A stretch of 40,731 nt of DNA, taken from Halobacteriales archaeon QS_4_66_20 (GTDB lineage Archaea; Halobacteriota; Halobacteria; Halobacteriales; Haloarculaceae). Shown here one piece after another: positions 9,392 through 28,366 of the stretch. Location of the stretch: contig PXRK01000036.1 in the NCBI GenBank assembly GCA_003021015.1, forward strand, positions 1 through 40,731, in the 5' to 3' direction. Position numbers and translations under genes: made by a program. Below the pieces are notes generated by a model. The model worked only from the letters and a program-made list of their open reading frames with translations, had not been told where the DNA came from and did no database searches. The stretch's first letter is position 1; each line of letters begins with the position of its first letter.

Positions 9392-10150
9392 ATGACACAG
9401 TCCGATTCGGTGCTGCTGGCGGAGATGACGTGGCCGGAAGTACAGGAAGCGCTCGACAGTGGCGTCACGACGGCGATTGTCGCGGTCGGATCGATCGAAC
9501 AGCACGGGCCGCACCTGCCGCTACGGATGGACACGATGGCCGGCGACGAACTCTCCAAACGGATCGCCGAGCGCCTCGGTGATGCGGTCGCCGCGCCGAC
9601 CATCCGCCCCGGCTGTTCGGGCCACCATATGGATTTCCCGGGGACGATCACCGTCCCGCCGGAGACGCTGATGGACACGATCCGCGGCTACTGCCGGTCG
9701 CTGAACGAACACGGGTTCGAGCACATCGTCCTCGTGCCAACCCACGGCGGCAACTTCGCGCCGACCAACACGGTCGCGCCCGACATCGCCCGCGAGATCG
9801 AGGCGAACGTGATCGCCCTCGCCGATATGGACGAATACATGGGGCTGCTCAACGAGGGCCTGCAGGCCGCCGACATCGACTACGACGAACCCGTCTCCCA
9901 CGCCGGCGCGACCGAAACGTCGCTGGTGCTGGCCGCCGAGGAAGAACTCGTCCGCACGGAGGAGTACGAGCCCGGCCACGAGGGGCCGGTTTCGACCGCG
10001 CGCCTGCTCAGCGACGGGTTCGCCGCCGTCACCGAGAACGGCGTGCTCGGCAACCCGACGTATGCGGCCGCCCAGGCGGGCGAGGAGGCGTTCGAACTGG
10101 TCGCCGAGGAGTACGCCGAACAGATCGACGCCGAGCGGGACGCTGTGTGA
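9392..10150 (+). CDS. Creatininase-family amidohydrolase (ArfB-like candidate)
   Basis: This 252-residue cytoplasmic metal-dependent amidohydrolase keeps the metal-ligand pattern of the creatininase fold: Glu36 and His38 (GSIEQHGPHLP), Asp47, His118 (THGGN) and Glu175 (HAGATETS). In archaea this family includes ArfB, the formamide hydrolase of riboflavin and F420 synthesis, as well as enzymes of unknown substrate. Sequence alone does not decide between them. The start is ATG 9392 (MTQSDSVLLAEMTWPEV); upstream in-frame sequence overlaps the kinase gene and the repeat end. Its TGA stop codon is also the left flank of a 110-bp hairpin element. Confidence 0.85.
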   Translation: MTQSDSVLLAEMTWPEVQEALDSGVTTAIVAVGSIEQHGPHLPLRMDTMAGDELSKRIAERLGDAVAAPTIRPGCSGHHMDFPGTITVPPETLMDTIRGYCRSLNEHGFEHIVLVPTHGGNFAPTNTVAPDIAREIEANVIALADMDEYMGLLNEGLQAADIDYDEPVSHAGATETSLVLAAEEELVRTEEYEPGHEGPVSTARLLSDGFAAVTENGVLGNPTYAAAQAGEEAFELVAEEYAEQIDAERDAV

Positions 10151-10261
10151 TACTGGTGGCTGTAATTCTTTTACTCACCAGTCTCTGCTATCTGCGGATA
10201 CAGACTCTTTCCGCCTGGATTCTCAATTCGAGTTTCCACGTACTTACAGCCACCAGTATGA
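10148..10261. mobile_element. 110-bp hairpin element, copy at 10.15 kb
   Basis: A perfect 16-bp inverted repeat, ATACTGGTGGCTGTAA at 10150-10165 and its complement at 10244-10259, spans 110 bp. TGA occurs immediately outside TAC...GTA on both sides (10148-10150 and 10259-10261). The left TGA is the stop codon of the creatininase gene. The tip is related to the copies at 21.5 and 28.25 kb (ATACTG..GG..GT.ATTCT.TTAC), but the interior differs. Confidence 0.75.
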
Positions 10262-10383
10262 GCAACGGAGCGGAACGACGATGAGGGGGCCGGTCCGCCG
10301 GATCCCTCGCCCCAGTCGGAACCGGCTCGCAACAGGCTACTGTCGTGAACAACGTTTTTGCCCGCGCCGCGTTGCTCTCCGGT

Positions 10384-11346
10384 ATGGGACACGACGAGCA
10401 GAACATCCGCCGGATGGACGCCACAATCGAGCCCGAGGAGATGGCAACGGGCGACGTCTACGAGGCGACCGCCGCAGGCACGTCGGACCTCTACTTCGTC
10501 GACACCGGGCTGTACGACACGCCCGGCTACGGCTCGATCTACGTGCTCGACAGCGAGCGCCCGGCGGTGATCGAGACCGGCACCGGCTACCGCCCGGAGT
10601 TGATCGTCGACGCCGTCGAGCGCGTGGGGATCGACGCCGCGGATCTGGCGGTGATCGCGGTCACCCACGTCCACCTCGACCACGCGGGCGGCGCCGGCTA
10701 CCTCCTCGAGGCGTTCCCGAACGCCGACGTCCACCTCCACGAGGCCGGCACGCGGTTCCTCACTGACCCGGCGAAGATCTGGGAGGGGACGAAGGCTGTC
10801 GTCGGCGACCGCATCGAGTACTACGCCGAACCGAAGCCGATCCCCGAGGATCGCCTCGTCGCCCTCGATGACGGCGAGGTCGTCGACTTGGGCGATCACG
10901 AACTCCGGGTCCACCACGCGCCGGGCCACGCGTTCCACCAGGCGGTGTTCTATGACCCCGAAAACGACGGCGTGTTCACCGCCGACGCGGCGGGGATCAA
11001 CAGCCCGACTGTCGGCGGCCTCCGCCAGACTAGCCCGCCGCCGGGGTTCGATCTGGAGGGCTGTCTGGACGACATCGAACTGCTGGGAGACCTCGATCCG
11101 GCCGCGCTGTACTACGGCCACTTCGGCGACTACGAGACCGGCGACCTGCTGGCCGAGTACGCCGACCTGCTGGACTCGTGGGTCGAGCGCGTCGAGCGCA
11201 AGCGCGCGGAACTGGGTGACGACGAGGCCGTCGCCGAGTTCTTCGCGGACGAAGCAGAGGGGAGTGGCGCCTGGTCGGCCCAGCACGCCCGCCAGGAAGA
11301 ATGGATGAACGTCCAGGGCGTCCTCCACTATCTCGACGAGCGCTAG
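10384..11346 (+). CDS. MBL-fold metallo-hydrolase
   Basis: This 320-residue metallo-beta-lactamase-fold hydrolase shows the binuclear metal motif THVHLDH (His95, His97, Asp99, His100). Further ligands are probably His in HHAPGHAFHQ, Asp in FTADAAG and a C-terminal His in YYGHFGDYE. The family includes glyoxalase II and various lactonases and thioesterases, so the substrate is not predictable. I start at ATG 10384 (MGHDEQNIRRM). A T-rich CGTTTTTGCC about 30 nt upstream looks like the promoter, suggesting a leaderless message. It is separated from the creatininase gene by the hairpin element, so co-transcription is doubtful. Confidence 0.87.
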   Translation: MGHDEQNIRRMDATIEPEEMATGDVYEATAAGTSDLYFVDTGLYDTPGYGSIYVLDSERPAVIETGTGYRPELIVDAVERVGIDAADLAVIAVTHVHLDHAGGAGYLLEAFPNADVHLHEAGTRFLTDPAKIWEGTKAVVGDRIEYYAEPKPIPEDRLVALDDGEVVDLGDHELRVHHAPGHAFHQAVFYDPENDGVFTADAAGINSPTVGGLRQTSPPPGFDLEGCLDDIELLGDLDPAALYYGHFGDYETGDLLAEYADLLDSWVERVERKRAELGDDEAVAEFFADEAEGSGAWSAQHARQEEWMNVQGVLHYLDER

Positions 11347-11369
11347 GAAACGGAGTCGTGTGGTTGTTT

Positions 11370-12275
11370 TTAGATTTCAGAGTGTTCCGGCCGGAGACCG
11401 GAGTGAAGCTGCACCGCCAGTTCTGCGGCGTCGACCCAGTAGTAGATCGTCCGTTCGAGTGCGCGCGTGATCGTCACCAAGTAACCGTACATGTCCGGAT
11501 CGTACGCCGTCACCAGCTCGAACAGCTCATCGAGATTCCGGTGGACAGTCTCCTCACGGTCCCGGAGGTTGTCGTGGACCGCGAGCTCACAGTCGAAGCA
11601 GATCCGCGAGAAGTAGTCGTTGATCTCCGCGCCGGCAGCGAAGATGTCGGCCATGCGCTCGCCGACGATGCCGTTCGCGTCGGTGTCCTCGCGGCCGACG
11701 ACGTCGGCGATGAAACAGGCCCGATCCCCGACGATTTCGAGGTTCGTCGCGATCGTCGACAGATCCGCAGCGACGCGGTTGCCCGGCCAGTCGGTCGTCA
11801 GCGTGTAGGATTTCAGTTCCGCGAGGACCGCCGAGTAGCGTTCGTTTGTGAGCGACTCCAGGGTCTTGGCGGAGTGCTCGACGGGTTCGCCGAGAAACGC
11901 CGCACGCGCGGCGTCGTACTGGCGTGCGGTCACCGTCTCCAGGCGGTCGAGCAACTCCAGGACCTCCGTCCCGCGATCTGCCGTCTCCCCGTCTGAGACG
12001 ATTTCGCCGACAGCGTGGTCGCTGTCGTACAGCTTCGAGATGTGTCCCGAACTCTCGTACAGCGCCGCGTCGTCAACGACGTACCCCTTGCGCACGACGC
12101 CATCGCCTTTGAGTTCCTGCAACAGTTCCGAGAGATACTGCTCGGAGATGCCGACCGTGCGCGCGAGTTCTTCTTTCGTCTCGGGAGCGGTCCTGTCAAT
12201 TGCTTCGACGACCTGTGCACGCGTCGCGTCACGACCACCCGCTCCCAGCGGCCGTTGCCACGTTCGACGGGACAT
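11370..12275 (-). CDS. PhoU-domain regulator with N-terminal winged helix
   Basis: A 301-residue regulator. A helix-turn-helix lies at about residues 15-62 (ATRAQVVEAIDRTAPETKEELARTVGISEQYLSELL...LKGDGVVRKG). The remainder is all-helical and matches the PhoU fold (for example TIATNLEIVGDRACFIADVV and the C-terminal ITRALERTIYYWVDAAE). Such proteins regulate phosphate uptake in archaea, though no pst transporter genes occur nearby. It is divergent from another PhoU-type gene at 12467, with mirrored promoter boxes between them. The ATG at 12275 places the promoter box about 22 nt upstream. Confidence 0.85.
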   Translation of the reverse strand: MSRRTWQRPLGAGGRDATRAQVVEAIDRTAPETKEELARTVGISEQYLSELLQELKGDGVVRKGYVVDDAALYESSGHISKLYDSDHAVGEIVSDGETADRGTEVLELLDRLETVTARQYDAARAAFLGEPVEHSAKTLESLTNERYSAVLAELKSYTLTTDWPGNRVAADLSTIATNLEIVGDRACFIADVVGREDTDANGIVGERMADIFAAGAEINDYFSRICFDCELAVHDNLRDREETVHRNLDELFELVTAYDPDMYGYLVTITRALERTIYYWVDAAELAVQLHSGLRPEHSEI

Positions 12276-12296
12276 ACCTGCTGGTCTCGACTCCCC

Positions 12297-12309
12297 ATCT
12301 TAGGGTTGG
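12297..12309 (-). promoter_or_regulatory. Left copy of a mirrored promoter box
   Basis: On the minus strand this reads CCAACCCTAAGAT, ending 22 nt before the ATG of the HTH-PhoU gene. The same box, with two mismatches, faces the other way at 12429-12441. It may be a non-canonical TATA region or a shared operator. Confidence 0.5.
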
Positions 12310-12428
12310 CCCACAGACTGTCCGGACGGGTATGTACTCCCACAATCGGGCCCTGCACGAGCCGGGGTAGTCCATCGGACTGCGATGTACTGGTATGTAC
12401 GCCTCACGACGCCAACGGACCCCTCATA

Positions 12429-12441
12429 CCAAACCTAAGGT
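12429..12441 (+). promoter_or_regulatory. Right copy of a mirrored promoter box
   Basis: CCAAACCTAAGGT ends 26 nt before the ATG at 12467 of the AbrB-PhoU gene and matches the opposite box (CCAACCCTAAGAT) at 11 of 13 positions. Its location fits either a promoter or a regulator site governing both divergent PhoU-type genes. Confidence 0.5.
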
Positions 12442-12466
12442 GTTCTCGGTTCATGGCGGACCGTAT

Positions 12467-13483
12467 ATGGAGACACGCAAAGTCCAGCTCTCCGGGGGGA
12501 CGACGTACACCATCTCGCTGCCGAAGTCGTGGGCACAAGAGCACGGCATCGACGCCGGCTCGACGCTGTCACTGTATCCGAACGGCGACGGGTCGCTGCT
12601 GGTCGAGGCCGAGGGGAATCGGTCGACGGAGACGCGGTCGACGACCATCGACGTCTCGACCGACTCGGACAGCGCCATCAGACAATGGATCGACGCGCTG
12701 CACGCCGTCGGCTGTGATACGGTGACGCTGGTCGACCGGACGGGCCACTCCGCCGAGCGCCGCGGTGTCGTCGAGGACACCGTCACAAACCTCTCGGGCT
12801 TCGAGCTGCTGGAGGCCGGCGACACGAGGATCCAGCTGACGAACCTGATCGACGCCGAGAACGTCGACGTCCGCAAATCCGCGCTGCGACTCCGACTCGT
12901 GATTGTGGGGATGCACCGCGACGCGGTGAGTGCCGTCCTGACCGGCGAGGAGACGCTGGCACAGCGCGTCATCGACCGCGACAACGAGGCGGACAAGCTG
13001 TTCGCGATGGTGACCCGTCACTTCCGGCGGGCGTTGACGAACCTCCACGAGGTCGAGAAACTCGAATACAGCCGGGACGAACTGTTCGAGTACTACTACG
13101 TCTGCCGGCAGTTCGAGCGGATCGCCGACCACGCCGAGAAAATCGCGCGGTTTACGCTCGATCCCGAGGCCACGATCCCGGCGACGTTCGGGGACCGAAT
13201 CGAGGAACTGGCAGCGAGCGCCAGAGGGATCGTCGACATCGCCGCGGACGTGATCCTCGCCGACGCCGGCATCGAAGGGGCACAGACAGCACTGACCAAA
13301 CTGGACGACCTGACGGCCGATCTCAGAGCACTCGACCGGGACCTGTACGCACACGACGATCCCGCCGAGGCATATGTCGTCGGCCTCCTTCTCGACAGCA
13401 TCCGCCGCACCGGCGAGTACGGCGCGAACGTCGCCAGTATCGCCGTTCAGCAGGTCGCCCGCGAGCGTGAACATCTCGATTGA
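12467..13483 (+). CDS. PhoU-domain protein with N-terminal AbrB/SpoVT-type DNA-binding domain
   Basis: A 338-residue protein. Residues 1-50 (METRKVQLSGGTTYTISLPKSWAQEHGIDAGSTLSLY) form a swapped-hairpin AbrB/SpoVT-type domain. The rest is two helical PhoU repeats, with the DRDNEADKLFAMVTRHF and CRQFERIADHAEKIAR signatures. This domain pairing is the standard archaeal PhoU-like phosphate regulator. The start is ATG 12467, since METRKVQ is the family N-terminus; the frame is open to 12395 but crosses the promoter. Divergent from the HTH-PhoU gene; their adjacency suggests one regulatory unit. Confidence 0.9.
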   Translation: METRKVQLSGGTTYTISLPKSWAQEHGIDAGSTLSLYPNGDGSLLVEAEGNRSTETRSTTIDVSTDSDSAIRQWIDALHAVGCDTVTLVDRTGHSAERRGVVEDTVTNLSGFELLEAGDTRIQLTNLIDAENVDVRKSALRLRLVIVGMHRDAVSAVLTGEETLAQRVIDRDNEADKLFAMVTRHFRRALTNLHEVEKLEYSRDELFEYYYVCRQFERIADHAEKIARFTLDPEATIPATFGDRIEELAASARGIVDIAADVILADAGIEGAQTALTKLDDLTADLRALDRDLYAHDDPAEAYVVGLLLDSIRRTGEYGANVASIAVQQVAREREHLD

Positions 13484-13642
13484 CGGCGAGGTCAACGGAG
13501 GTGATCTCTCGAAAATGTCGAGTCTCGGTCTCCTGTTCTGGCTGGCCTGTTCGAGAATATCCCCCCGGACGTGACCTTCCCGCTGATCGTCATTTCGTGC
13601 GGTGTGTTAACTATTAGTGGGCCGCGTCCATACGGGCTGTGT

Positions 13643-14683
13643 ATGCGCGCAGCACGGCTGAACGAGTTCACACACGACATGGCGAACGGGCTGTCAATCG
13701 AGGATGTCTCCCGGCCGGCGGCCTCGGCCAGCGACGACGTCGTGATCGAGATCGACGGCGCAGGCTGGTGCCAGACGGACAACCACATCATCGAGGGGAT
13801 GTGGGAGCCGTACGTCGGCAAGCCGCTGCCGATGACGCTGGGCCACGAGAACGCCGGCACGGTCCAGGCGGTCGGCGACGAGGTGACGGTCGTCTCGCCG
13901 GGCGACCAGGTGATCTGTCACCCGGTCCAGACCTGCGGGACGTGCCGCCCCTGTCGGCAGGGCGAGACGATGTACTGCGAGAACGGCGCGTTCAACGGGC
14001 TGACGGTCGACGGCGGGTTCGCCGAGGAAATGATCACGAACGAGCGGGCGGTGATCCCGCTGCCCGACGGCGTCGACCCGACGGAGATCGCCCCACACGC
14101 CGACGCGGGGATCACCGCCTACCACGCCGCCAAGAAAGCCGTCGACGAACTCAACCCCGGCGACGCTGTCGTCGCCATCGGGATCGGCGGCCTCGGCCAC
14201 ATCGGGCTCCAGTGCGTCGACGCGATGAGCGCGGCGGACATCGTGGCCGTCGACATCAAGGAGTCCGCGCGGAACCTGGCCGAAGACCTCGGCGCGGACG
14301 TGACGATCGACCCGACCAGCGAGGACGTCGGCGAGGAGGTCGGGGCGTTGACCGACGGGACCGGCGCAAAGCAGGTGCTGGACTTCGTCGGGAGCGACGA
14401 GACGACGGCGATGGGGCCGGAGATCTGTGCGGCCGGCGGCGACCACCACGTCATCGGCTACGGCGGGCACGTCCACGAGCCCGCACAGGCGTTCGTCGAC
14501 GGCGAGTTCGCCTACCGCGGGACGCTCGTCGGCCGCTACGCCGAACTCCAAGAGCTGGTCGCGCTGGTCGAGCGCGGCGACGTGGACCTGCACACCTCGC
14601 GGTACGACCTCGAGGACGTCAACAGGGTCGCCGAGATGCTGGAGCACCGCGAGATCGACGGCCGGGCCGTGATCACTCCCTGA
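13643..14683 (+). CDS. Zinc-dependent alcohol dehydrogenase (MDR family)
   Basis: A 346-residue medium-chain dehydrogenase/reductase. Catalytic zinc ligands are Cys43 (GWCQTD) and His68-Glu69 (LGHENAG). The structural zinc lobe has Cys98, Cys101, Cys104 and Cys112. The NAD(P)-binding motif is GIGGLGHIG. The expected reaction is reversible oxidation of an alcohol to an aldehyde or ketone; the natural substrate is unknown. A TTAACTATTA stretch 26-35 nt upstream of ATG 13643 is a likely TATA region, giving a leaderless transcript. It has no obvious pathway partners adjacent. Confidence 0.93.
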   Translation: MRAARLNEFTHDMANGLSIEDVSRPAASASDDVVIEIDGAGWCQTDNHIIEGMWEPYVGKPLPMTLGHENAGTVQAVGDEVTVVSPGDQVICHPVQTCGTCRPCRQGETMYCENGAFNGLTVDGGFAEEMITNERAVIPLPDGVDPTEIAPHADAGITAYHAAKKAVDELNPGDAVVAIGIGGLGHIGLQCVDAMSAADIVAVDIKESARNLAEDLGADVTIDPTSEDVGEEVGALTDGTGAKQVLDFVGSDETTAMGPEICAAGGDHHVIGYGGHVHEPAQAFVDGEFAYRGTLVGRYAELQELVALVERGDVDLHTSRYDLEDVNRVAEMLEHREIDGRAVITP

Positions 14684-14808
14684 CGCACTGCTGGGGATGA
14701 TCGGGCGGCATTCAGATACCGAGTCGTATTCGCGGCAAACTCTCTCCTACACACTCCCACAGCTCCATCGCCCCGACGTTTTTGTCTGTCCACGACGGAG
14801 CAGCGAAC

Positions 14809-16377
14809 GTGCTGACGAAAGACCTCCTGCGGGTTTCCCGGCGCGGCGGCGGGTACAGCCCGCAGTTCGCCGACGCGAGCCACGAGGAACTGGCAGCCAG
14901 CGTACTCGGCTGCTACCAGGGTCACGTCGGCGAACCCCGTGAGCGCCTCCAGGAGGCGCTGACGGAACTCGAACGCGAGAGCGACGACTTCAAGCTGGTC
15001 CGGGGGTTCGCCAAACTCCTCGACCGGGACGCCAGTTGGGAGGTGCAGTCGCCGGTCGACCCCGGGGGGGCGCGGCGAACTGCCTTCGCTGCGAGTGAGC
15101 AAATCGGGGTCGTCACCGCTGCGGAGCGACAGCAGGCGCTCGACCACGCGGCCGACCGCCTGGACGCGACGCCGGAGGCCATCGAGCAGTCGCTGTACGC
15201 CGACCTCGACCGCCGGGAGATCCTGGCGGCGGTCGACCCGCGCTGGGGTCCGGCCGAGCTGGTGGCGCGATACAACCTCTCGCTGGCCCAGACCGCGCTG
15301 TTCGACGCCACCGAGGTCCGGCTCCGGAGTTCGGACCCCCGGTCGCTCGTCTCGGCGGTCAAGCGCCTCGGCCTGATGTACGAGGTCTACAGCGGGGAAA
15401 CCGGCGACGGACACAGCAACGAGGGCGCGAGCGGAAGCGAGGGCGCGGGCGCAGGGAACCGTCGCGACTGGGAACTGGTCGTCACCGGGCCGGATCGGCT
15501 GTTCCGGTCGACGCGGCGGTACGGCACCCAGTTCGCCCGCCTGCTGCGGACGGTCGCGAAGACCGACGACTGGCAGCTCACAGCGACCATCGACGACCGC
15601 GGGACCGAGCGCACGATGGAGCTTTCGGACGACGACCCGGTGGCGGTGCCGGGCGCCGAACCGCTCGCGGAGGACCAGTTCGACAGCGCCGTCGAGGCGG
15701 AGTTCGCGACCCGCTTTCGATCCCTCGATTTCGACTGGAGCCTGGTTCGCGAGCCCGCCCCCCTGGAAGCCGGCGGGCGGGTGATGATCCCCGACTTCGC
15801 CTTCGAGTACGAGCACGCCGACTTCCGGGTGTTTTTCGAGATTATGGGGTTCTGGACGCCCGAATACGTCGCGAAGAAGCTCGGCCAACTCGACGCGGTC
15901 GACGCCATCGAGATGCTGGTCGCCGTCGACGAGAGCCTCGGCGTCGGCGAGGAGATCGAGGCTCGCGACCACCGCGCGATCACCTACGCGAAATCGATCC
16001 GCCTCAAGGACATCCGCAACGCGCTTCGGCCTTACGAAGAGGAGCTGACGGCGGCGGCTGCTGCCGACCTCCCCGACGAACTCCGGCCCGAGGCCGACGT
16101 GATCACCCTCGGCACGCTGGCAGCCGAGTACGGGGTCAGCGAGGCCGCCGTCGAGGACGCGACCGTTCCCGAGCACGAGCGCGTCGGGCGCACGCTCGTG
16201 CGACCCGCCGTCCTGGAGACGCTCGCCGAGGACATCGCCGCCGGCATGTCGCTCGAGGAGGTCGAGGCCGTCCTCGACGAGCACGGGATCGATGACGCCA
16301 GCGCGACGCTCGCCGCACTGGGCTACCGCGTCGAGTGGGAGGGCCTCGGCGGGGGGACGATCCGCGAGCGTGAGTGA
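14809..16377 (+). CDS. DUF790 family nuclease (Bax1-like, XPB partner)
   Basis: A 522-residue protein starting VLTKDLLRVSRRGGGYSPQF, the hallmark of the DUF790/Bax1 family. Archaeal Bax1 is a nuclease that works with the XPB helicase in nucleotide excision-type repair. A PD-(D/E)xK-like core is visible: IPDF at Asp329, FEIMGFW at Glu344, then Lys356-Lys357. No XPB helicase gene is adjacent, although the two are often paired in archaea; it could be elsewhere in the genome. I prefer GTG 14809 over the TTG at 14782, because family members begin at this motif and a T-run (CGTTTTTGTC) sits 25-32 nt upstream. Confidence 0.87.
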   Translation: MLTKDLLRVSRRGGGYSPQFADASHEELAASVLGCYQGHVGEPRERLQEALTELERESDDFKLVRGFAKLLDRDASWEVQSPVDPGGARRTAFAASEQIGVVTAAERQQALDHAADRLDATPEAIEQSLYADLDRREILAAVDPRWGPAELVARYNLSLAQTALFDATEVRLRSSDPRSLVSAVKRLGLMYEVYSGETGDGHSNEGASGSEGAGAGNRRDWELVVTGPDRLFRSTRRYGTQFARLLRTVAKTDDWQLTATIDDRGTERTMELSDDDPVAVPGAEPLAEDQFDSAVEAEFATRFRSLDFDWSLVREPAPLEAGGRVMIPDFAFEYEHADFRVFFEIMGFWTPEYVAKKLGQLDAVDAIEMLVAVDESLGVGEEIEARDHRAITYAKSIRLKDIRNALRPYEEELTAAAAADLPDELRPEADVITLGTLAAEYGVSEAAVEDATVPEHERVGRTLVRPAVLETLAEDIAAGMSLEEVEAVLDEHGIDDASATLAALGYRVEWEGLGGGTIRERE

Positions 16378-16412
16378 CGAACTGCTCGACTGCCGAACTG
16401 ATCGCGTCGTCT

Positions 16413-16853
16413 TCACCTCTCTGTGTCCCACTGTTCGCGCCGGCGCTGGTACGTCTCGTCGTTGCGCACTCTGTCGAGGTACTCGCGGTACACCTGCGAG
16501 ATGTCGTACTTCTCCTCGTCGTACCACTCCTGTGGCTCGCGCTCGGTCCCGTCGTCGTACTTGCGGCCGCCGGGGTACTTCGCGTAGCGCAGGCTCCGGG
16601 TCCACCCCATCTGGAGATATTTGCGGGCCATGTCCATCCCCGGGAATTCGTCGTTTCGTTTGTACTGTTCGAACTGCTCGTAGATGCGCTCGGCTGCTTC
16701 TTTCGCACTGTCGAGGGTTTTGATGGTCCACAGCTCGAGTAGCTCGTCTTTGTACGGCTGGACTTTGAACGCGCCCTCCTCGCCGCGGCCGATCTCGTAC
16801 GCCTCGGGGTGTTTGCGGAAGTTCACGTCGTACTCGGGGTTGTCGTCTCCCAT
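16413..16853 (-). CDS. DUF4385 family protein
   Basis: A 146-residue soluble protein rich in charged and aromatic residues, with conserved stretches YDVNFRKHPEAYEIGRGEEGAFKVQPYKDELLELW and MARKYLQMGWTRSLRYAKYPGGRKY. These match my recollection of DUF4385, a family without established function that also occurs in bacteria and phages. No catalytic motif, signal peptide or membrane segment is evident. It converges on the DUF790 gene with a 35-bp gap and is divergent from the MATE transporter. Confidence 0.8.
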   Translation of the reverse strand: MGDDNPEYDVNFRKHPEAYEIGRGEEGAFKVQPYKDELLELWTIKTLDSAKEAAERIYEQFEQYKRNDEFPGMDMARKYLQMGWTRSLRYAKYPGGRKYDDGTEREPQEWYDEEKYDISQVYREYLDRVRNDETYQRRREQWDTER

Positions 16854-16983
16854 CCGGCGCTGGTAGGGCCTGGACTCGCCTAAGCGTCACGTTCGTCGGC
16901 TTTGTTCCGGTCTGTGTGGCTGTTCGAGCCGCAGCCACGTACGAAGCGTCGCTTTCATGGCCGGGCACCCCTAACTACGGGGA

Positions 16984-18511: not shown

Positions 18512-18566
18512 TGATACGGTCGTTCGTGATTCGTTGTCCCGAAAATACTCACGAACGACCGTATGA
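18512..18566. repeat. 51-bp hairpin, mini form of the TGA-bounded family
   Basis: ATACGGTCGTTCGTGA at 18514-18529 pairs perfectly with its complement at 18549-18564. TGA flanks TAC...GTA on both sides (18512-18514 and 18564-18566). It lies between the convergent MATE and cheR genes and could also act as a transcription barrier. The right arm recurs at 1024-1043. Confidence 0.7.
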
Positions 18567-21437: not shown

Positions 21438-21494
21438 TGTCAGTCACCTCTGTGTCGTCCGCCCGTCGCGGCGCTGGTGGAAATCTCCACGTAC

Positions 21495-21608
21495 TCATAC
21501 TGCCGGACGTGATTCCGTTCCCACCCGGATAGCGCTCAGCAGCTGAGACAACCGAAACCCCCAGTCCGAGCATCACTCGGAGTAACAGAGTCACGTCCGG
21601 CAGTATCA
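21495..21608. mobile_element. 110-bp hairpin element, copy at 21.5 kb (inside the che operon)
   Basis: ATACTGCCGGACGTGATTC at 21497 is matched by its imperfect complement ending at 21606. TCA (TGA on the minus strand) bounds both ends (21495-21497 and 21606-21608). By eye it is about 96% identical to the inverted copy at 28253-28366 (four differences in 110). It separates cheB from cheA. A further 15-bp copy of the element end (CACGTCCGACAGTAT, 21607-21621) abuts it and supplies context for the cheB stop codon. Confidence 0.85.
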
Positions 21609-21620
21609 CGTCCGACAGTA

Positions 21621-22676
21621 TCACTGTGGCACCTCCCTGCTGGCGGCGTCGAGGATGCCGTCGGTCAGTTCGCCGATCGGCAGCACCTCGTCGACGGAGC
21701 CCGTCTCGATCGCCCGCTTTGGCATGCCGAACACCGCCGAGGTCTCCTCGTCCTGTGCGATGGTCGTCCCGCCGACCGCCTTGATCGACTCGATCCCGGC
21801 AGCGCCGTCCTCGCCCATGCCCGTGAGAACGACGGCGAACAGCGGGTCGTCGATCACCTCGGCGGCGCTGCACATCGTCATATCCACGGCGGGCCGGACG
21901 CTGTTGACCGGCTGGTCCTCGGTCAGTTTCACCCGGAGGCGTCCGCTGTGGTAGTTCGAAATGACCATGTGCGTGCCGCCCGGCGCGATCAGCGCCTCGC
22001 CGGCGCCGATGCGGTCGCCGTCCACCGCCTCCTGGATGTCGTAGTCGCTGCGGGCGTCGATCCGGGCCGCGAACCGGTCGGTAAAGCCCTCCGGCATGTG
22101 CTGGACCACCAGTACGCGGAACCCGGCCTCAACCGGTAGCTCCGAGAGGAGCTGCTCGACTATCTTCGGACCGCCAGTCGAGGAGCCGATCACGAGCGTC
22201 GGATGCTCGACGTACGCGCCGCCGGCCTCGTCTGGCGCCCCGTCGTCGGACGCCGCTGGCGCGTCCTCGCCGGGCGACGTGCCCGCGACTGACCGGACCA
22301 TCTCGACGAGCTGGCTCTCCAGCCGGGACATCTCCATTGACACCTCGCCGCCGGGCTTGGTGAAAAAGTCAACCGCACCCTTGTCCAGCGCCTGGAACGT
22401 GACGTCGGCGTTCTCGTTGGTGTGGGCCGACAGCATCACCACGGGCGTGGGCTGGTCGGCCATGATCCGCTCGACGGACTCGATCCCGTCCATCTCCGGC
22501 ATCTCGACGTCCATCGTCACGACGTCGGGCCTGTGCTCCCGGACGGCAGCGACGGCTTCACGCCCGTTGCGGGCCTGTCCGATGACCTCGACGCCGCCGT
22601 CCTCCAGGATGTCGGTGATGACGCTCCGCATGAAATGCGAATCGTCGGCGACGACTGCCCGTGGCCTACGCTGCAT
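21621..22676 (-). CDS. cheB: Chemotaxis response regulator and methylesterase CheB
   Basis: A 351-residue protein that removes methyl groups from receptors (and can deamidate) when phosphorylated by CheA. The receiver domain has acidic pair Asp11-Asp12, phosphoacceptor Asp56 (TMDVEMPEMDG) and a late Lys (FTKPGG). A variable acidic linker leads to the esterase domain with catalytic Ser in VIGSSTGGP, His in VVQHMPEGFT and Asp in LTGMGEDGA. The start is ATG 22676 (MQRRPRAVVADDS); the frame stays open to 22808 only by reading through a repeat element. Its TGA stop overlaps a repeat end. Confidence 0.95.
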   Translation of the reverse strand: MQRRPRAVVADDSHFMRSVITDILEDGGVEVIGQARNGREAVAAVREHRPDVVTMDVEMPEMDGIESVERIMADQPTPVVMLSAHTNENADVTFQALDKGAVDFFTKPGGEVSMEMSRLESQLVEMVRSVAGTSPGEDAPAASDDGAPDEAGGAYVEHPTLVIGSSTGGPKIVEQLLSELPVEAGFRVLVVQHMPEGFTDRFAARIDARSDYDIQEAVDGDRIGAGEALIAPGGTHMVISNYHSGRLRVKLTEDQPVNSVRPAVDMTMCSAAEVIDDPLFAVVLTGMGEDGAAGIESIKAVGGTTIAQDEETSAVFGMPKRAIETGSVDEVLPIGELTDGILDAASREVPQ

Positions 22677-22709
22677 CACGAACACCAGTGGTTGCGACGC
22701 CGCGCCGAT

Positions 22710-22820
22710 ATACAGCCGGACGTGACTCCGTACAGTGCCAGGACAGTCCATCGGCTGTATCATGGCCCGAACAACGGGAGTTGGGACGGCATGGCGTACC
22801 TGAATCACGTCTGGCTGTAT
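22710..22820. mobile_element. Diverged 111-bp hairpin element, copy at 22.7 kb
   Basis: ATACAGCCGGACGTGACTCC starting at 22710 pairs imperfectly with a sequence ending ACGTCTGGCTGTAT at 22820. Length and tips match the family at 21.5 and 28.25 kb, but the flanking TGA is not kept on either side and the interior differs. It sits directly upstream of cheB and may move or supply its promoter. Confidence 0.65.
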
Positions 22821-22908
22821 AACGCGTCGGCTGCATTCACGGGCACTGGGGTGAGTGTGCCAATAAAAACTCCGCCCACGTCATCAAACGTGATACTCCG
22901 GAGGGCAG

Positions 22909-22915
22909 ATTTAAG
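22909..22915 (+). promoter_or_regulatory. TATA-like box of the cheW transcript
   Basis: ATTTAAG, about 85-91 nt before the cheW GTG, would start transcription near 22937 and leave a leader of about 60 nt carrying a Shine-Dalgarno GGAGG. That differs from the leaderless pattern of most genes here. Confidence 0.45.
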
Positions 22916-22999
22916 TCCGATCCGTCGCTTCTCACGAACGAGAACTGACGGCCGGAAGCTGGATCGCGGCCACTCCGGTACCGGCGCCGGGAGGACAGC

Positions 23000-23458
23000 G
23001 TGACCGACACGGCACCACTACGGGAGGAGGGCTCTATGGCAACGAACGGACAGGTACTCGAATTCAAGCTCGGCGAGGAGATGTACTGCGTGAGCATCGA
23101 CTGCGTGACCGAGATCGTCGACGTCGGCGAGCTGACGTCGGTGCCGGACTCGCCACCACACATCGAGGGTGTCATGGACCTCCGCGGCCGCACGACCTCG
23201 ATCGTGAACCCGAAGACGGTGTTCGACATCGACGCTGACACCGAGGCCCAGCGGATCGTCGTCTTCGAGCCGGAGCTCGTCGGCGACCAGGCGGCCGCCG
23301 GCTGGCTGGTCGACGAGGTCGACCAGGTGGTCCAGGTCGACTACGGCGACGTCGACGAGTCGCCCGCCAGGGACGGCCGGGCGGTCCACGGCGTGATCAA
23401 ACAGGAGTCCGGCGCGTTCATCATCTGGGTCGATCCCAAAGCCGTCCACGCGGCGTGA
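23000..23458 (+). CDS. cheW: Chemotaxis coupling protein CheW
   Basis: A 152-residue adaptor linking receptors to CheA. The sequence is a single CheW domain: VLEFKLGEEMYCVSIDCVTEIVDV, then GVMDLRGRTTSIVNPKTVF and a C-terminal VHGVIKQESGAFIIWVDPKAV. Two starts are plausible: GTG 23000 with GGAGG five nt upstream, and ATG 23036 with GGGAGGAGG seven nt upstream. I list the longer form because related proteins usually have a dozen or more residues before the VLEF strand. It is divergent from the cheB-cheA-cheR unit and begins the plus-strand half of the island. Confidence 0.94.
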   Translation: MTDTAPLREEGSMATNGQVLEFKLGEEMYCVSIDCVTEIVDVGELTSVPDSPPHIEGVMDLRGRTTSIVNPKTVFDIDADTEAQRIVVFEPELVGDQAAAGWLVDEVDQVVQVDYGDVDESPARDGRAVHGVIKQESGAFIIWVDPKAVHAA

Positions 23459-23569
23459 CTGTCTGTTTGGCCGGCCAATGCCGATCCGACTCCGCGGGAG
23501 CGACCACCCCCTGGTTGGCAAGACTTTTTTCTGTGGGGGCTGCAGTCTAGACAAATTCCACCCCGAACG

Positions 23570-24295
23570 ATGGTTGAACTAACGAAAACAGGGATCGACG
23601 GTCTCGACGAGATACTCAACGGTGGCATCGTGCGTAACTCGACCACGCTGGTCAGCGGCAACCCGGGTGCCGGAAAGACGATTCTGGGGCTACAGTACAT
23701 CTACAACGGCGTCGAGCTGTACGACGAGAAGGGCATCTTCCTCTCGTTCGAGGAGAACGCCGAGGACCTCCGGGAGGCGGCCGAGTCGATCGGACTGGAT
23801 GACTGGGGCAAACACGTCGAGGGGGGGAACATCAAGGTGTACGACAAACAGGAGCTCCTGCGGGAGAACGATTTTAGCTCCTCGCTCGAACTTCTGTTGA
23901 GCGACCTCGACGACGAGAGCTACGAGCGGCTGGTGCTGGACTCGCTGACGATGTTCCAGCTGTTTTTCGACAGCGAGCGCGAACAGCGCACGTACCTGCT
24001 GAAGTTCACCGACATCCTCAGCGAGAACAACCTCACGACGCTGATGACCAACGAACAGGGGACCGTCTTCCCCGAGACCGAGGTCGGCCTGGAGAACTTC
24101 CTCACCGACGGGAACATCTTCCTGCTCCAGACGCCGACCGAGTCCGGGGTCAACCGGTACCTCTGGGTCGCGAAGATGCGCAAGAAAAACATCGACACCG
24201 ACATCTTTCCGATGGAGATGGGCCAGGGCGGGATCACCGTCCACAAGAACGCCAGCGCCTTCTCCATGATGAGCGAGGAAGATTCGCCTCTCTGA
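23570..24295 (+). CDS. KaiC/RAD55-type RecA-fold ATPase, single domain
   Basis: A 241-residue ATPase with one RecA-like domain. It starts TKTGIDGLDEILNGGI, with Walker A GNPGAGKT (about residues 30-37), the KaiC-type catalytic glutamates FLSFEENAED, and Walker B RLVLDSLTMF. The C-terminus MGQGGITVHKNASAF resembles archaeal KaiC-like and FlaH-like proteins. It has only one ATPase domain, so it is not a clock-type KaiC duplicate. It sits between cheW and cheY, followed by a winged-helix gene, so a role in motility or gene control is plausible but unproven. A T-run (GACTTTTTTC) about 40-50 nt upstream may be the promoter. Confidence 0.88.
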   Translation: MVELTKTGIDGLDEILNGGIVRNSTTLVSGNPGAGKTILGLQYIYNGVELYDEKGIFLSFEENAEDLREAAESIGLDDWGKHVEGGNIKVYDKQELLRENDFSSSLELLLSDLDDESYERLVLDSLTMFQLFFDSEREQRTYLLKFTDILSENNLTTLMTNEQGTVFPETEVGLENFLTDGNIFLLQTPTESGVNRYLWVAKMRKKNIDTDIFPMEMGQGGITVHKNASAFSMMSEEDSPL

Positions 24296-24406
24296 CAAGA
24301 CTTCGTTATTAGATTCGAAAACACCACGCAGAGTCCGTGAAAACTGAGTTTTAGCCCCTCTCACAGCCAGTTTTTACAATCTGAAACACTCTCAGAACCC
24401 GGTAGA

Positions 24407-24413
24407 TTTATGC
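24407..24413 (+). promoter_or_regulatory. TATA-like box of the HTH gene
   Basis: TTTATGC begins 34 nt before ATG 24441 within a markedly AT-rich stretch (24400-24440), predicting a leaderless transcript separate from the ATPase gene. Confidence 0.5.
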
Positions 24414-24440
24414 TCCTCGTAATTTATAATTTGATAACCA

Positions 24441-24776
24441 ATGTCTTCAGTGGATCTGTTGCAGACGCTGGGGAACAAATACAGCGCCGAGATCCTGGAT
24501 GCGACCGACGAGCCACGGTCGGCCCAGGAACTGAGCAAGGAACTCGACATCCCGATCGCAACCTGTTATCGGCGGATCGACGAGCTGACCGAGCACGACC
24601 TGCTGAAACTCCACGACAATATCCTCTCGGATGACCGGCGACGCATCAAAGTGTACCGGCGGAACATTGACGCGGTCCGCGTCGAGTTTGACGAGGCGCT
24701 CACGGTCGACATCGAGGAGCGCTCCAAGGTGACGAACGCCCTGGACGAAGCCTGGCGAACACTTTCGGAAGGCTGA
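24441..24776 (+). CDS. Winged helix-turn-helix (ArsR-like) transcriptional regulator
   Basis: A 111-residue protein with a winged helix at about residues 5-70: LLQTLGNKYSAEILDATDEPRSAQELSKELDIPIATCYRRIDELTEHDLLK, ending in a wing with basic residues (DDRRRIKVYRR). The C-terminal helix is acidic. No metal-binding cysteines for an ArsR metal sensor are present (its one Cys is in the recognition helix region). In haloarchaea such regulators often precede a small three-helix membrane protein, as here. Its position between the KaiC-like ATPase and cheY suggests local control, which is an inference. Confidence 0.88.
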   Translation: MSSVDLLQTLGNKYSAEILDATDEPRSAQELSKELDIPIATCYRRIDELTEHDLLKLHDNILSDDRRRIKVYRRNIDAVRVEFDEALTVDIEERSKVTNALDEAWRTLSEG

Positions 24777-24809
24777 TCTCCCTTCCTGTCGCTCGCTCCA
24801 TCGTCTGTC

Positions 24810-24923
24810 TCATAGTGATTGTTGTAACTCTTTACCGCTGGGTATTCCTCAGACGCCAGTTTCGGGCCGTGAAACCGCCGCTATTGCGACATGGTGCCGA
24901 AAATAATCGCAACAGCACTACCA
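24810..24923. mobile_element. Probable diverged 110-bp hairpin element, copy at 24.8 kb
   Basis: TCATAGTGATTGTTGTAACTC at 24810 matches the solo end at 9268 and the tip of the 10.15-kb copy. A weak complementary end (GCAACAGCACTACC) lies about 110 bp downstream, near 24921. The rest of the 268-bp gap before the next gene holds no other identifiable feature. Confidence 0.45.
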
Positions 24924-25044
24924 CTCCTGCAGCCCGGCTATCTAGTCTTCACCGCACGTACGCGACCGGTTTCGCCGGCTTTCACCCGTCGACGGCTGTC
25001 GATTCGCGGCCTTTTTCTCATTATCAGCCGAGATAGTTGCGAGG

Positions 25045-25365
25045 GTGGATTTAACACGGGTAGTCGATAAGCCCCAACTGGTGTCCGCAATCATCGAACT
25101 CCTGTATGTGGGAACGACGCTGGTGTTCATCGTCACGGGGCTCACGATGGTAGGGATGGCGATCCGGGCGTACGTCGAGACCGAGCGGATGGCGATGCTC
25201 CACCTCTCAGTGGGGTTCTCGCTGGCCGTTGCAGGCGCAGCCGCGACGATGATCAGCGCGTTTCTCACCGACTTCCAGGGTACCCGGTCACTGCTGCTGG
25301 TCAAGAGTTCCCTGTTTACCTTCGGGTTCCTGTTCGTGATGTACAGCCTGACCACATACGAGTGA
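25045..25365 (+). CDS. DUF7521-like three-helix membrane protein
   Basis: A 106-residue hydrophobic protein with three predicted transmembrane helices (about 15-38, 50-72 and 80-102) and short charged ends. It resembles the haloarchaeal DUF7521 family, which is typically encoded beside a winged-helix regulator as here. I start it at GTG 25045 (VDLTRVVDKPQ); no in-frame ATG precedes the first helix. Function is unknown. It may be the regulator's membrane-bound signal partner, but this is only an inference from gene order. Confidence 0.72.
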   Translation: MDLTRVVDKPQLVSAIIELLYVGTTLVFIVTGLTMVGMAIRAYVETERMAMLHLSVGFSLAVAGAAATMISAFLTDFQGTRSLLLVKSSLFTFGFLFVMYSLTTYE

Positions 25366-25460
25366 ATCAGGTCCGGGTGGTGACGGATACAGGCCGATCT
25401 CGACAATCACTGTGACACCGCAACACGAAGGGAGTATCAACGCCGATAATCACCGGGACA

Positions 25461-25470
25461 ATTTTATTTA
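25461..25470 (+). promoter_or_regulatory. TATA box of the cheY-cheC-cheD operon
   Basis: ATTTTATTTA ends 30 nt before ATG 25500, the spacing expected for a leaderless archaeal transcript. It would drive cheY, cheC and cheD, which follow with gaps of 1-2 nt. Confidence 0.65.
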
Positions 25471-25499
25471 GGTGATTCCGGAAATATCCGGTAGTAGGC

Positions 25500-25859
25500 A
25501 TGGCAGAAGTACTGATAGCCGACGACTCGGAGTTCATGCGCAACCTCCTGCGGGAGATTCTGGAGGAGGATCACACGATCGTCGGGGAAGTCGAGAACGG
25601 CGTAGAGGCGGTCGAGGTGTTCACGGAGGAGCACCCCGACCTGGTGATGATGGACATCGTGATGCCGATCCGGGACGGGATCGAGGCGACCGACGAGATC
25701 AAGGACACGAGCCCGGACGCGAACGTGGTCATGTGCACGAGCGTCGGGCAGGAGGAGAAGATGAAGGAGGCGGTCAAGGCCGGCGCCGACGGGTACATCA
25801 CCAAACCGTTCCAGAAACCCAGCGTGATGGAAGCCATCCAGGACGTCGTGCCCTCGTAG
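25500..25859 (+). CDS. cheY: Chemotaxis response regulator CheY
   Basis: A 119-residue single receiver domain, the phosphorylated output of CheA that in archaea acts on the archaellum motor through adaptor proteins. Visible residues are the acidic pair Asp8-Asp9 (IADDSEFMR), phosphoacceptor Asp52 (VMMDIVMPIRDG), Thr/Ser in CTSVGQ and Lys in ITKPFQ. There is no output domain. It is first of the tight cheY-cheC-cheD operon, ending 2 nt before cheC. The archaellum genes and CheF adaptor are not in this window. Confidence 0.97.
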   Translation: MAEVLIADDSEFMRNLLREILEEDHTIVGEVENGVEAVEVFTEEHPDLVMMDIVMPIRDGIEATDEIKDTSPDANVVMCTSVGQEEKMKEAVKAGADGYITKPFQKPSVMEAIQDVVPS

Positions 25860-25861
25860 CG

Positions 25862-27076
25862 ATGAAGGTCGACGTCCAGTCGCTCGACACCTTCAACCAG
25901 CTCGCCCACGAGGGCGCCGAGGCAGCGACGCGGTCGCTGACCCAGATGACGGGGATCGAGGCGACCGTCGACGTGACGCGGATCTCGCTGCTCGACCGCG
26001 AGGACGTCGGCGAGGAGCTCCGCGGAACGGCGTTCGCCGGCGTCCAGTTCGGCTTCGAGGGCGCACTCGCCGGCGAGACGGTGCTGGTGTTCGAGGAGAA
26101 ACGGGTCGGCGACATCGTCGAGGCCCTGATGCCCGGGGGCTGTGCCGACGAGAGCATGGCCCAGTCCGGCGTCGAGGAGATCGGCAACATCATGATGAGC
26201 GGGTTCATCGACGGCTGGGCGGAACACCTGAACGCGACGATCGATCACACGCCCCCGACGTACATCGAGCGCGAGGGCGCCGCCGTGGTGCCCGACGGGC
26301 CGGAGACGGGCGCCCGCGACCAGGTGTTCGTGTTCCGCAGCGAGATCGAGTGGGCCGGCGAAGACGTGAACTTTTACATCTACATGCTCCCCGGGTACGG
26401 CTCGATGGCGGAGCTGTTGGCCGAGCACGTCGACACCGCGGGCGACGCCATCCCGATCGAGAAGCTGGCGGTGTTCAACCAGATGACCCGGGAGGGCGCC
26501 GCCAAGGCCGCCGAGAACGTCCAGATGATGTCCGGCATCGAGACCGAGGCCGAGGTCGCCCAGCTCTCCTTTGTCCCCATCGAGGACGTCCCAAGACAGT
26601 TCGGCGAGGACACCTACGTCGGGACGGTCGTCGAGTTCACGGGCACGCCCAGCGGGTTCCTGCTGGTGCTGTTCGACGAGGCGTCGGCGGTCACGGTCGC
26701 GGAGGCGCTGCTGCCGGTCGAGCCCGACAGTGACGGGCTGACCGAACAACACGAGTCGGCGGTCACCGAACTCGGAAACATCATGACAAGCGGGTTCGTC
26801 GACGGCTGGGCGAACGTCCTCCAGCAGAGCGTCGACCACACCCCGCCCCGGCTCGTCCACGACATGGGCCAGGCGATCATCGACCCGCTGGCCGCCCAGC
26901 TCGGCCGCCACCAGCGCCACGCGTTCATCATCGACGCCAGAATGCAGACCGACGAGGTCGACTTCGAGAGTGAGATCCACGCGCTGCCAAACGAGCAGGA
27001 ACTCCGGGCGGCGCTCGACGAACTCGTCGTCGACCGCGCCGACCAACTGGAGGCCGACGCCGAACAGATCTTCTAA
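25862..27076 (+). CDS. cheC: CheC-type phosphatase, tandem two-domain form
   Basis: A 404-residue protein made of two CheC-like domains. Each opens with a matching helix (LDTFNQLAHEGAEAATRSLTQMTGIEA and LAVFNQMTREGAAKAAENVQMMSGIET). Each carries an active-site-like ExxGN motif (EEIGNIMMSGFIDGWA and TELGNIMTSGFVDGWA). CheC dephosphorylates CheY-P and binds CheD. Both copies keep the Glu and Asn of the motif, so both may be active. The start is ATG 25862; the same frame is open upstream through cheY but there reads as a shadow. One nucleotide separates it from cheD. Confidence 0.94.
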   Translation: MKVDVQSLDTFNQLAHEGAEAATRSLTQMTGIEATVDVTRISLLDREDVGEELRGTAFAGVQFGFEGALAGETVLVFEEKRVGDIVEALMPGGCADESMAQSGVEEIGNIMMSGFIDGWAEHLNATIDHTPPTYIEREGAAVVPDGPETGARDQVFVFRSEIEWAGEDVNFYIYMLPGYGSMAELLAEHVDTAGDAIPIEKLAVFNQMTREGAAKAAENVQMMSGIETEAEVAQLSFVPIEDVPRQFGEDTYVGTVVEFTGTPSGFLLVLFDEASAVTVAEALLPVEPDSDGLTEQHESAVTELGNIMTSGFVDGWANVLQQSVDHTPPRLVHDMGQAIIDPLAAQLGRHQRHAFIIDARMQTDEVDFESEIHALPNEQELRAALDELVVDRADQLEADAEQIF

Positions 27077-27077
27077 C

Positions 27078-27599
27078 ATGAAAGTCTACGACGGGAGCCA
27101 GTCCGACGACGGGCCCGAAGCCGAGCCCGAACGCGTCAAGGTGGGCATCGCCGAGTACGAGGTGACCGCCGACGACGCGGAGCTGACCACGAGCGGCCTG
27201 GGCTCCTGTGTCGGCGTCGCGCTGTACGACACCGAAACCGGCGCCGCTGGGCTGGTGCACGTCATGCTGCCGGTCGCCGAGGAGATGGACGAGGGCAAGG
27301 CCGCGAAGTTCGCCGACTCCGGCACTCAGCTGCTGATCGACGAACTGCACGCCATCGGGGCTAACCCCAGGACGGTCCAGGCGAAGATCGCCGGCGGGAG
27401 CGACATGCTGGACTTCTCCGAAGGTGGCTCGGGGATCGGCGACCGCAACGTCGAGCAGGTCCGGGCGACGCTCGCCGAGAACGACATCCCGATCGTCGAC
27501 GAGGACGTCGGCGGCGACCACGGCCGCTCGCTCCGCCTCGAGGCTGCCTCCGGCGACCTCGTCGTCAAGAGCGCAAACCGGGAGAAACGGACGCTTTAG
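27078..27599 (+). CDS. cheD: Chemoreceptor glutamine deamidase CheD
   Basis: A 173-residue enzyme that deamidates receptor glutamines and binds CheC. The catalytic Cys44 is in SGLGSCVGVALYD and His61 in GLVHVMLP, with the family block AKIAGGSDML downstream. The start is ATG 27078 (MKVYDGSQ), two nt after the cheC TAA. The N-terminal 20 residues are acidic and variable. It is last in cheY-cheC-cheD. The family assignment is clear. Confidence 0.95.
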   Translation: MKVYDGSQSDDGPEAEPERVKVGIAEYEVTADDAELTTSGLGSCVGVALYDTETGAAGLVHVMLPVAEEMDEGKAAKFADSGTQLLIDELHAIGANPRTVQAKIAGGSDMLDFSEGGSGIGDRNVEQVRATLAENDIPIVDEDVGGDHGRSLRLEAASGDLVVKSANREKRTL

Positions 27600-27729
27600 T
27601 GACCGGGACCGCGATCGCCCCGTTGCTCCTTCCAGTTCGTCCTCGTGGCCTGGGTTGTCTCGCGGCTCCGCCGACTCCGGCGGCGGGCGGTTTCGGTGTG
27701 CTTTTCCACGGCCTGCGCGAACGACGGGT

Positions 27730-28170
27730 ATGGCAACGGCACGCGGGGAGTTCCTGGCCGGTGAGCGCCCGGAGGACGTCCACATCTACCTCCACGAGGG
27801 CGCCGTCTCGGACATCGAGGCACTGACGGAGTACGGCGAGCGCGTCGAAGACGGCATCGTGCTCGTGCTCGACGGCGAACAGGCCCGCGGCGTGTTCCAG
27901 CGCGCGACCGGCATCGACCCGATGGGGTTCGCACGGAAGGCGATGGATACCGACGGCGAGGTCGACCGGGACTGTGCCGGTGGGATGTGTCCCGCTGGTG
28001 AGGGGGAGACCGGGGGGGAGCACCGGGCGCGGTTCGTGTTCGCGTTCGCCGAGGAACAGAACGAGGAGGCCGGCGGGCTGTACGCCGAGGGGCCGGTGAT
28101 CCACGGCTACGTCTCGTGTGTCTGCGGCGAGAGCTACTCCGAGAAGTGGGTCGCCAACGAGCAGGATTGA
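27730..28170 (+). CDS. DUF5807 family protein (haloarchaeal hypothetical)
   Basis: A 146-residue soluble acidic protein starting MATARGEFLAGERPEDVHIYLHEGAV. Four cysteines occur, two near the middle (DCAGGMCP) and two in a C-terminal CVCGES motif, which could bind a metal. It resembles the haloarchaea-specific family DUF5807, with no known function. The ATG at 27730 has a GCTTTTCC promoter-like stretch about 28 nt upstream, so it is probably its own transcript rather than part of the che operon. No membrane segment or signal peptide is seen. Confidence 0.75.
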   Translation: MATARGEFLAGERPEDVHIYLHEGAVSDIEALTEYGERVEDGIVLVLDGEQARGVFQRATGIDPMGFARKAMDTDGEVDRDCAGGMCPAGEGETGGEHRARFVFAFAEEQNEEAGGLYAEGPVIHGYVSCVCGESYSEKWVANEQD

Positions 28171-28252
28171 CGCTTCGAGGTCGACTCGTCCGGGCAGAAC
28201 GGCGGCTGGTCGCGACGCGCTTGGCGATCCGCGACGGCTGGCCGCCAGCTAC

Positions 28253-28366
28253 TCATACTGCCGGACGTGACTCTGTTACTCCGAGTGATGCTCGGACTGG
28301 GGTTTTCGGTTGTCTCAGATGCTGAGCGCTATCCGGGTGGTAACAGAATCACGTCCGGCAGTATCA
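28253..28366. mobile_element. 110-bp hairpin element, copy at 28.25 kb
   Basis: This is the reverse complement of the 21.5-kb element at about 106 of 110 positions, with TCA (TGA on the minus strand) at 28253-28255 and 28364-28366. The inverted terminal repeats extend about 25 bp with few mismatches (ATACTGCCGGACGTGA...). It lies between convergent genes, in a 289-bp gap that otherwise contains only a short tandem duplication. Confidence 0.85.

Follow-up and report, generated by a model that had tools for sequence, protein, structure and literature searches.

The window that we analyzed (the whole stretch of 40,731 nucleotides from Halobacteriales archaeon QS_4_66_20, whose draft genome, G000, amounts to 2.89 Mb) carries a scatter of short elements with inverted ends and no gene inside, all of them in the gaps between likely genes. 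What are these elements, present in hundreds of copies in this archaeon's genome, and what could have moved them? We argue that they are very probably miniature inverted-repeat transposable elements (MITEs) of the IS630 type, moved by a transposase made elsewhere, most likely one of the IS630 family (Tc1/mariner-like, with a DDE_3 domain).

Five families of short elements

Three full-length copies, at 10148, 21495 and 28253, have cores that begin with TACTG and end with CAGTA. The left TGA of the first is also the stop codon of an open reading frame (ORF) at 9203-10150 that looks, by eye, creatininase-like; the second sits between two ORFs resembling cheA and cheB (again judged by eye), and the third is located after the ORF at 27424-28170. 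An earlier note, made from the sequence alone, had placed these copies in one dispersed family bounded by TGA, together with a short relative at 18512-18566, diverged copies at 22710-22820 and 24810-24923, and half copies at 1024-1043 and 9268-9297. The three copies are real, the short relative does keep its TGA, and the half copies belong to families C and E, but the single family dissolves into five, A to E, with related ends and different middles (Table 1). The supposed diverged copy at 22710 is full length but of a different family, D, with TA and not TGA outside it; that at 24810 is indeed decayed but belongs to a separate fifth family, E. An additional family, F, comes from a genome of the same genus (G001).

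Table 1. Elements and remnants in the window, with their cores, tips and flanking bases
Feature	Position	Strand	Core, tips and flanks
Family A element	10148..10261	+	108-bp core 10151-10258; TACTGGTGGCTGTAA tips; TGA at 10148-10150 and 10259-10261
Family B element	21495..21608	+	108-bp core 21498-21605; TACTGCCGGACGTGA tips; TCA each side
Family B element	28253..28366	-	108-bp core 28256-28363; TCA each side; orientation opposite to the 21495 copy
Family C short element	18512..18566	+	49-bp core 18515-18563; TACGGTCGTTCGTGA tips; TGA each side
Family D element	22709..22821	+	109-bp core 22711-22819; TACAGCC(G/A)GACGTGA tips; TA each side (2-bp repeat)
Family E element, decayed	24810..24923	+	core 24813-24920; left tip TAGTGATTGTTG; TCA left, CCA right
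Family E half copy	9268..9305	+	left tip with TGA
Family C half copy	1024..1043	-	single tip with TGA
B-like remnant tip	21606..21623	-	TACTGTCGGACGTGA with TCA; adjoins the B copy at 21495, TCA common to both

Families A, B, C and E share the general form TA(C/G)nG...CnGTA, are mostly 108-109 bp long, and normally lie between direct repeats of 3 bp with the sequence TNA (TGA or TCA in most cases). Their full copies are short, have perfect or near-perfect 15-bp inverted ends, and carry no transposase gene in any copy read—that is, they look like MITEs. The shared tip pattern ATACKGNNGNNNGTRA, which excludes families D and E, matched the archaeon's own genome 175 + 165 = 340 times, against a single match for the reversed control pattern, and it did so 431 times against 2 in G010 and 196 against 0 in G011, two close relatives. 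The repeats that the earlier note had singled out therefore recur beyond chance, and, at two tips per element, 340 tips correspond to at least 170 elements and remnants, to which family E adds 49 strict full copies. (BLAST of the same genome with one A and one B query returned 43 and 81 matching pieces, which are not copy counts because the best 40 candidates were scored for each.)

Length is nearly constant. With 94-124 bp permitted by the E pattern, 99 E copies among the matches listed measure 109 bp in 88 cases, 108 in 9, 107 in 1 and 105 in 1. The 109-bp E copies (95/107 in one comparison) differ in the middle by a median of 38%, and the middle is partly conserved, with a dyad. The fixed length claimed earlier is near the truth for full copies of A to E but fails as a strict rule: matching repeats also enclose composites of 219-220 bp and short copies, so the length is preferred rather than required.

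Doubled targets and nested copies

Did these elements arrive by insertion? Flanks were counted for A, B, C, D and F on two-ended copies in the fetched loci, which are part of the genomes (tips with at most two mismatches, 70-118 bp). Identical 3-bp flanks were found in 36/41 A, 22/26 B, 6/6 C and 8/9 F copies, or 64/73 for A, B and C together, where chance would give 1 match in 64. A scan of genome contigs provided 93 loci for family E, and there, too, 91 of the 99 distinct copies among the matches listed have matching flanks (47 TGA, 40 TCA, 2 TTA and 2 TAA). TA flanks family D in 6 of 8 copies, as well as two further copies of B.

So strong a preference for TGA and TCA (87/99 of these E copies) might mean that the three bases belong to the element as a conserved outer part, or mark a fixed hot spot, with neither target duplication nor mobility; for TGA, the earlier note had left this choice standing. 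We find it scarcely credible. Inverted tips are combined with a direct repeat (TGA..TGA, TCA..TCA), TAA/TAA and TTA/TTA copies exist, elements differ in presence between close relatives, and nested inserts occur at targets that appear only once in uninterrupted copies.

These nested copies (A in B, E-like in B, D in A and B in A) show target duplication directly. The B site CATC-TGA-GACAACC has a single TGA in the uninterrupted window copy and TGA on both sides of E-like inserts. A second B site, CAGTC-TGA-GCATC, holds A inserts and one E-like insert, and uninterrupted B copies there read CGA or TGA; the A site TGC-TA-TC holds D and B inserts, with its TA doubled. Together with the direct flanks, they bear out the other choice that the earlier note had offered, a transposase-free element with a 3-bp target duplication. 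In G011, nine A-with-D composites lie at nine different places, 8/9 of them with matching 3-bp repeats, from which it follows that the composite moved as one unit by its outer ends.

Some individual arrangements may be recorded beside these. The one composite without a matching repeat (L112 236-454, G011:C87) has D reversed relative to A. At L005 1464-1629 (G000:C81), an A element has inserted in B with a different TCA site of B on each side and the B sequence between them gone, which is an insertion with an adjacent deletion. The genome of Halovenus salina (G005), of the same genus as the window, has an E element of 507 bp with about 400 bp of other DNA inside and TCA repeats that match (L370 350-870). 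On an H. salina plasmid (G005:C4; L361, L362), a PF01609 transposase gene seems to be broken by an E element, an arrangement present twice on that plasmid.

Close relatives carry different sets of elements. The A copy at 10148 is absent in G011, and G010 carries an internally deleted copy there, which would fit an insertion in the common ancestor with a near-precise loss in G011, if we have the order of events right. The B copy at 21495 and the D copy at 22710 are common to G011; D is lacking at the 22710 place in G010. Only two window copies have an orthologous site that could be read as empty, 10148 in G011 and 22710 in G010, and no alignment was obtained for the G010 region at the 28253 copy. 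At the place of the window's E half copy (9271-9305), G011 has a short E element and then about 840 bp with two small ORFs (G011:C75, L141 1224-1918) that resemble, by eye, a toxin–antitoxin pair.

Might the repeats instead be kept for some function in the host—as terminators, regulatory hairpins or protein-binding sites—and have spread by gene conversion or selection rather than transposition? The window copies do sit in intergenic gaps, and family E, with its partly conserved middle, its dyad and its near-fixed length, has some of the look of a functional unit. Yet the elements insert within one another and apparently within a transposase gene, their target duplications are precise, they occupy different places in close relatives, and no Rfam family reached the gathering score other than one transfer RNA (tRNA). 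The spacing of matches in genome G003, moreover, indicates that the B copy at 21495 is lacking there and is consistent with a lack of D. We regard a host function as a highly improbable origin.

The strict E pattern occurs in 8/392 genomes of the order and 5/95 genera, with 78/84 copies in the window's genus. E elements between TCA repeats were also found on Halorubrum plasmids. Another copy in Halorubrum is flanked by TGA/TCA, and a Halobacterium plasmid has a 108-bp relative with TCA/TCA.

Candidate transposases

If the elements were moved by a transposase made elsewhere, where is its gene? The archaeon's own assembly gave no autonomous partner. DDE_3 had no match in G000, G010 or G011, an absence that is not proven because these drafts are 89, 79 and 64% complete; it is present in 6/18 genomes of the genus. 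Twenty stretches at unpaired tips of A/F type (17 in G001, 2 in G004, 1 in G005) contained no autonomous element: 18 have a partner tip 75-128 bp away, the core in L156 measures 34 bp, and L164 holds a half copy with ordinary genes next to it. A second partner at 1927 bp in L160 was a decayed tip behind an ordinary gene. H. salina has 41 exact E tips, of which 26 form 13 pairs at MITE distance; 12 of the 15 unpaired tips were read, and they revealed partners at 108-109 bp (11 tips) or 507 bp (one) and no autonomous element. The tips beside a transposase gene on G005:C4, considered as a possible autonomous element, belong to the 109-bp MITE that apparently interrupts that gene. Viral contigs yielded single tips only among the matches listed and no full E pattern (10 matches to the A/B pattern were ordinary sequence by eye), plasmids searched with an A or B query gave no match, and phages gave none with the E query and low-scoring partial matches with the E end.

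Other haloarchaea do have candidates, so the full-length transposase partner that the earlier note had proposed to look for exists in part: IS630-type relatives with similar ends were found in other species and none in the archaeon's own assembly. A plasmid search with the E end (E-value 0.1) found two identical 1122-bp elements in Natribaculum breve, with TAGTGATTAGTTCGAATCTTTACCGG at one end and TCA on both sides of both copies, in which two ORFs together encode an IS630 transposase (DDE_3 at 88.6 bits, plus HTH_33; NCBIfam IS630 at 105.4 bits for the first ORF, above the cut-off of 100, and 58.3, below it, for the second). A protein 84-85% identical to this one is encoded six times in H. 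salina, by elements of 1121-1122 bp that occupy four distinct sites (TTA, TCA, TGA and TGA); the species also has a second IS630 type of 1070 bp, with ends alike at 10/18 positions and TCA repeats. For further relatives, 12 of 63 plasmid records with a protein match were fetched and ends looked for. TNA repeats were found in Halorubrum ezzemoulense (TGA), one Natrarchaeobaculum copy (TCA), Halocatena marina (TCA) and Haloarcula sinaiiensis (TGA), and TA repeats in the second Natrarchaeobaculum copy, ISNpe3 and two ISNpe3-like elements. Natrinema zhouii and ISNma7 have end-like pairs without a matching repeat, no ends were found in Halococcus, and among 13 protein-match loci, five (L488, L490, L491, L493 and L494) gave no ends. 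In all, autonomous relatives of 1.0-1.13 kb were traced in H. salina, Natribaculum, Halorubrum, Natrarchaeobaculum, Halocatena and Haloarcula.

How alike are the ends? We compared 16 bases of each family with the best of 18 IS630 ends and with 4348 other control words starting with TA. The right end of E matched at 13/16 (0 controls as good), A at 12/16 (2 or 1 controls) and the C variant TACGGTCGTGCG (TGCG) at 12/16 (3 controls), none of which is a full match of the 15-bp ends. An independent end for E, that of Halorubrum ezzemoulense, which was found by its protein, gives 12 matches.

A transposase of the IS5 family is another candidate. The IS1031 and IS427 subgroups of IS5 make TNA or TA duplications, in agreement with the 3-bp and 2-bp repeats seen here, and PF01609 transposases occur in 13/18 genomes of the genus, with one match in the archaeon's own. 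But of the 94 PF01609 matches, the 30 examined include none with TA-starting ends (at least 11/16) plus a TNA repeat (a weak end pair in locus L179 led to another small element), and the elements that do have such ends and repeats turned out to be IS630. Mobilization by IS5 is, in our judgment, unlikely.

We therefore return to IS630, against which a number of observations must be counted. The family is known for duplicating TA at its target, and here TNA is duplicated by A, B, C, E, F and several autonomous relatives, TA being confined to D, two copies of B, one of the Natrarchaeobaculum copies and the ISNpe3-type copies. The two flanks of a Natronococcus copy with C-like ends differ (TGA and TCA), and of 14 DDE_3 loci in the genus, only L531 has TNA (with weak ends, 10/18), two have TA, and the rest lack repeat or ends. 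No autonomous element was found with A, B, C or E ends over the whole 15 bp. Several ends match poorly: the window's C variant TACGGTCGTTCG and the left end of E reach 11/16 (13 and 7 controls as good), B 11/16 (37 or 32 of the 4348 controls) and D 9/16 (218 controls), and, with 18 ends tried per family, all control rates need multiplying by 18. The likeness of Natribaculum to E was selected and is not independent, because that end was found by the E end; what Natribaculum adds is only its TCA repeats, the place at the element edge and its transposase. Finally, neither empty site is letter-perfect, although the elements are absent: the G011 site at 10148 has one base fewer than a perfect empty site would, and the G010 site at 22710 has other differences at the join.

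Allowing for the 18 ends, the link to IS630 would appear good in family A, fair in C and weak in B, and D shows none. Because the family is known for TA duplications, TNA is a departure, and because the target rule departs, we call the elements IS630-like by protein and ends rather than standard IS630 MITEs. In the mechanism that we propose, short gene-free DNA transposons with inverted ends would be moved in trans by an IS630-family transposase that recognizes an end starting with TA(C/G)nG, often with a second, TTTACCG-like motif about 20 bp inside. Insertion would take place at T-N-A (TGA or TCA preferred; TA for family D), with those bases duplicated. The IS630 transposases found elsewhere, or close kin of theirs, may act on these MITEs in trans; the source transposase of the window's organism may have been lost or may lie in the missing ~11% of the draft. 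Within the draft, the MITEs are most likely cut off from it.

Known relatives and other features of the window

Likeness between the MITEs and the haloarchaeal IS630 elements (ISNpe3, ISNma7 and the two-ORF relatives of Natribaculum, H. salina and Halorubrum) is confined to the ends, which begin with TA in both and in several of the IS630 elements include a TTTACC-like inner motif; the latter are, by contrast, 1.0-1.13 kb long and have a transposase. The two-ORF group and the Haloarcula/H. salina 1070-bp group share the TNA duplications of the MITEs, whereas ISNpe3 and its two similar copies have TA.

What of repeats already described? The SMR-A elements of Haloquadratum walsbyi (HqIRS42, HqIRS43 and HqIRS55) are reported to be about 110 bp long and to have prominent inverted ends and no transposase; a genome holds up to 54 copies, and they form three families without mutual sequence similarity (PMC3119063). 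Compared by description only, they are like the window elements in length, inverted ends, copy number and haloarchaeal host. They are reported to make no target duplication, to strongly prefer PATE/IS605 palindromes, and to have ends that are not related to those of known transposons (PMC3119063). The window elements, which duplicate TNA and resemble IS630 ends, are set apart by this description, and we do not class them as SMR-A. A table in another source lists an 89-bp Methanosarcina mazei MITE with IS630, and H. walsbyi MITEs with IS4, IS1595 and IS200/605 (PMC3852290). As listed there, the M. mazei element is like ours in being gene-free with inverted ends and an IS630 partner family, and unlike ours in having 5 copies and a direct repeat of 0. 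Prokaryotic MITEs have been reviewed (PMC10969869), and the literature that we searched held, in the parts consulted, no report of haloarchaeal MITEs with TNA or of IS630 with TNA. Unusual here are the TNA in place of TA, the near-fixed 109 bp of family E, and the resemblance to SMR-A.

One might go further. Perhaps a haloarchaeal branch of IS630 exchanged TA for TNA as its target, with a duplication of 3 bp, and drives, in many haloarchaea, a superfamily of near-fixed 108-109-bp elements with exchangeable middles, SMR-A of Haloquadratum included. We offer this tentatively and would not ourselves bet on it. The missing duplication of SMR-A would then be a matter of where the edge is placed (ATAC..GTAT inserted at T|A leaves no duplicate), and the constant length could reflect the geometry of the transposase–DNA complex.

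For very abundant gene-free haloarchaeal repeats, whose counterparts in Haloquadratum move by means that have been called enigmatic, the analysis names candidate partners, a target rule and the likely family of the transposase. Because haloarchaea are tractable, an ordinary transposition assay could test the link between IS630 and the MITEs, and a switch between 2-bp and 3-bp duplications inside one transposase family would be of interest for the mechanism of Tc1/mariner.

Three other features of the window may be noted. An elongation factor 2 ORF of 1256 aa (36467-40237, plus strand) has, by eye, an apparent in-frame intein after HVDHGK. Tandem repeats of 12 bp at 35952-36146 encode an ENGMENGEE-like stretch in the minus-strand ORF 35119-36237. 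The tRNA gene found by Rfam lies at 1116-1221, and an exact second copy of its 22-bp 3' end lies about 100 bp downstream, at 1323-1344, possibly the trace of an integration event.

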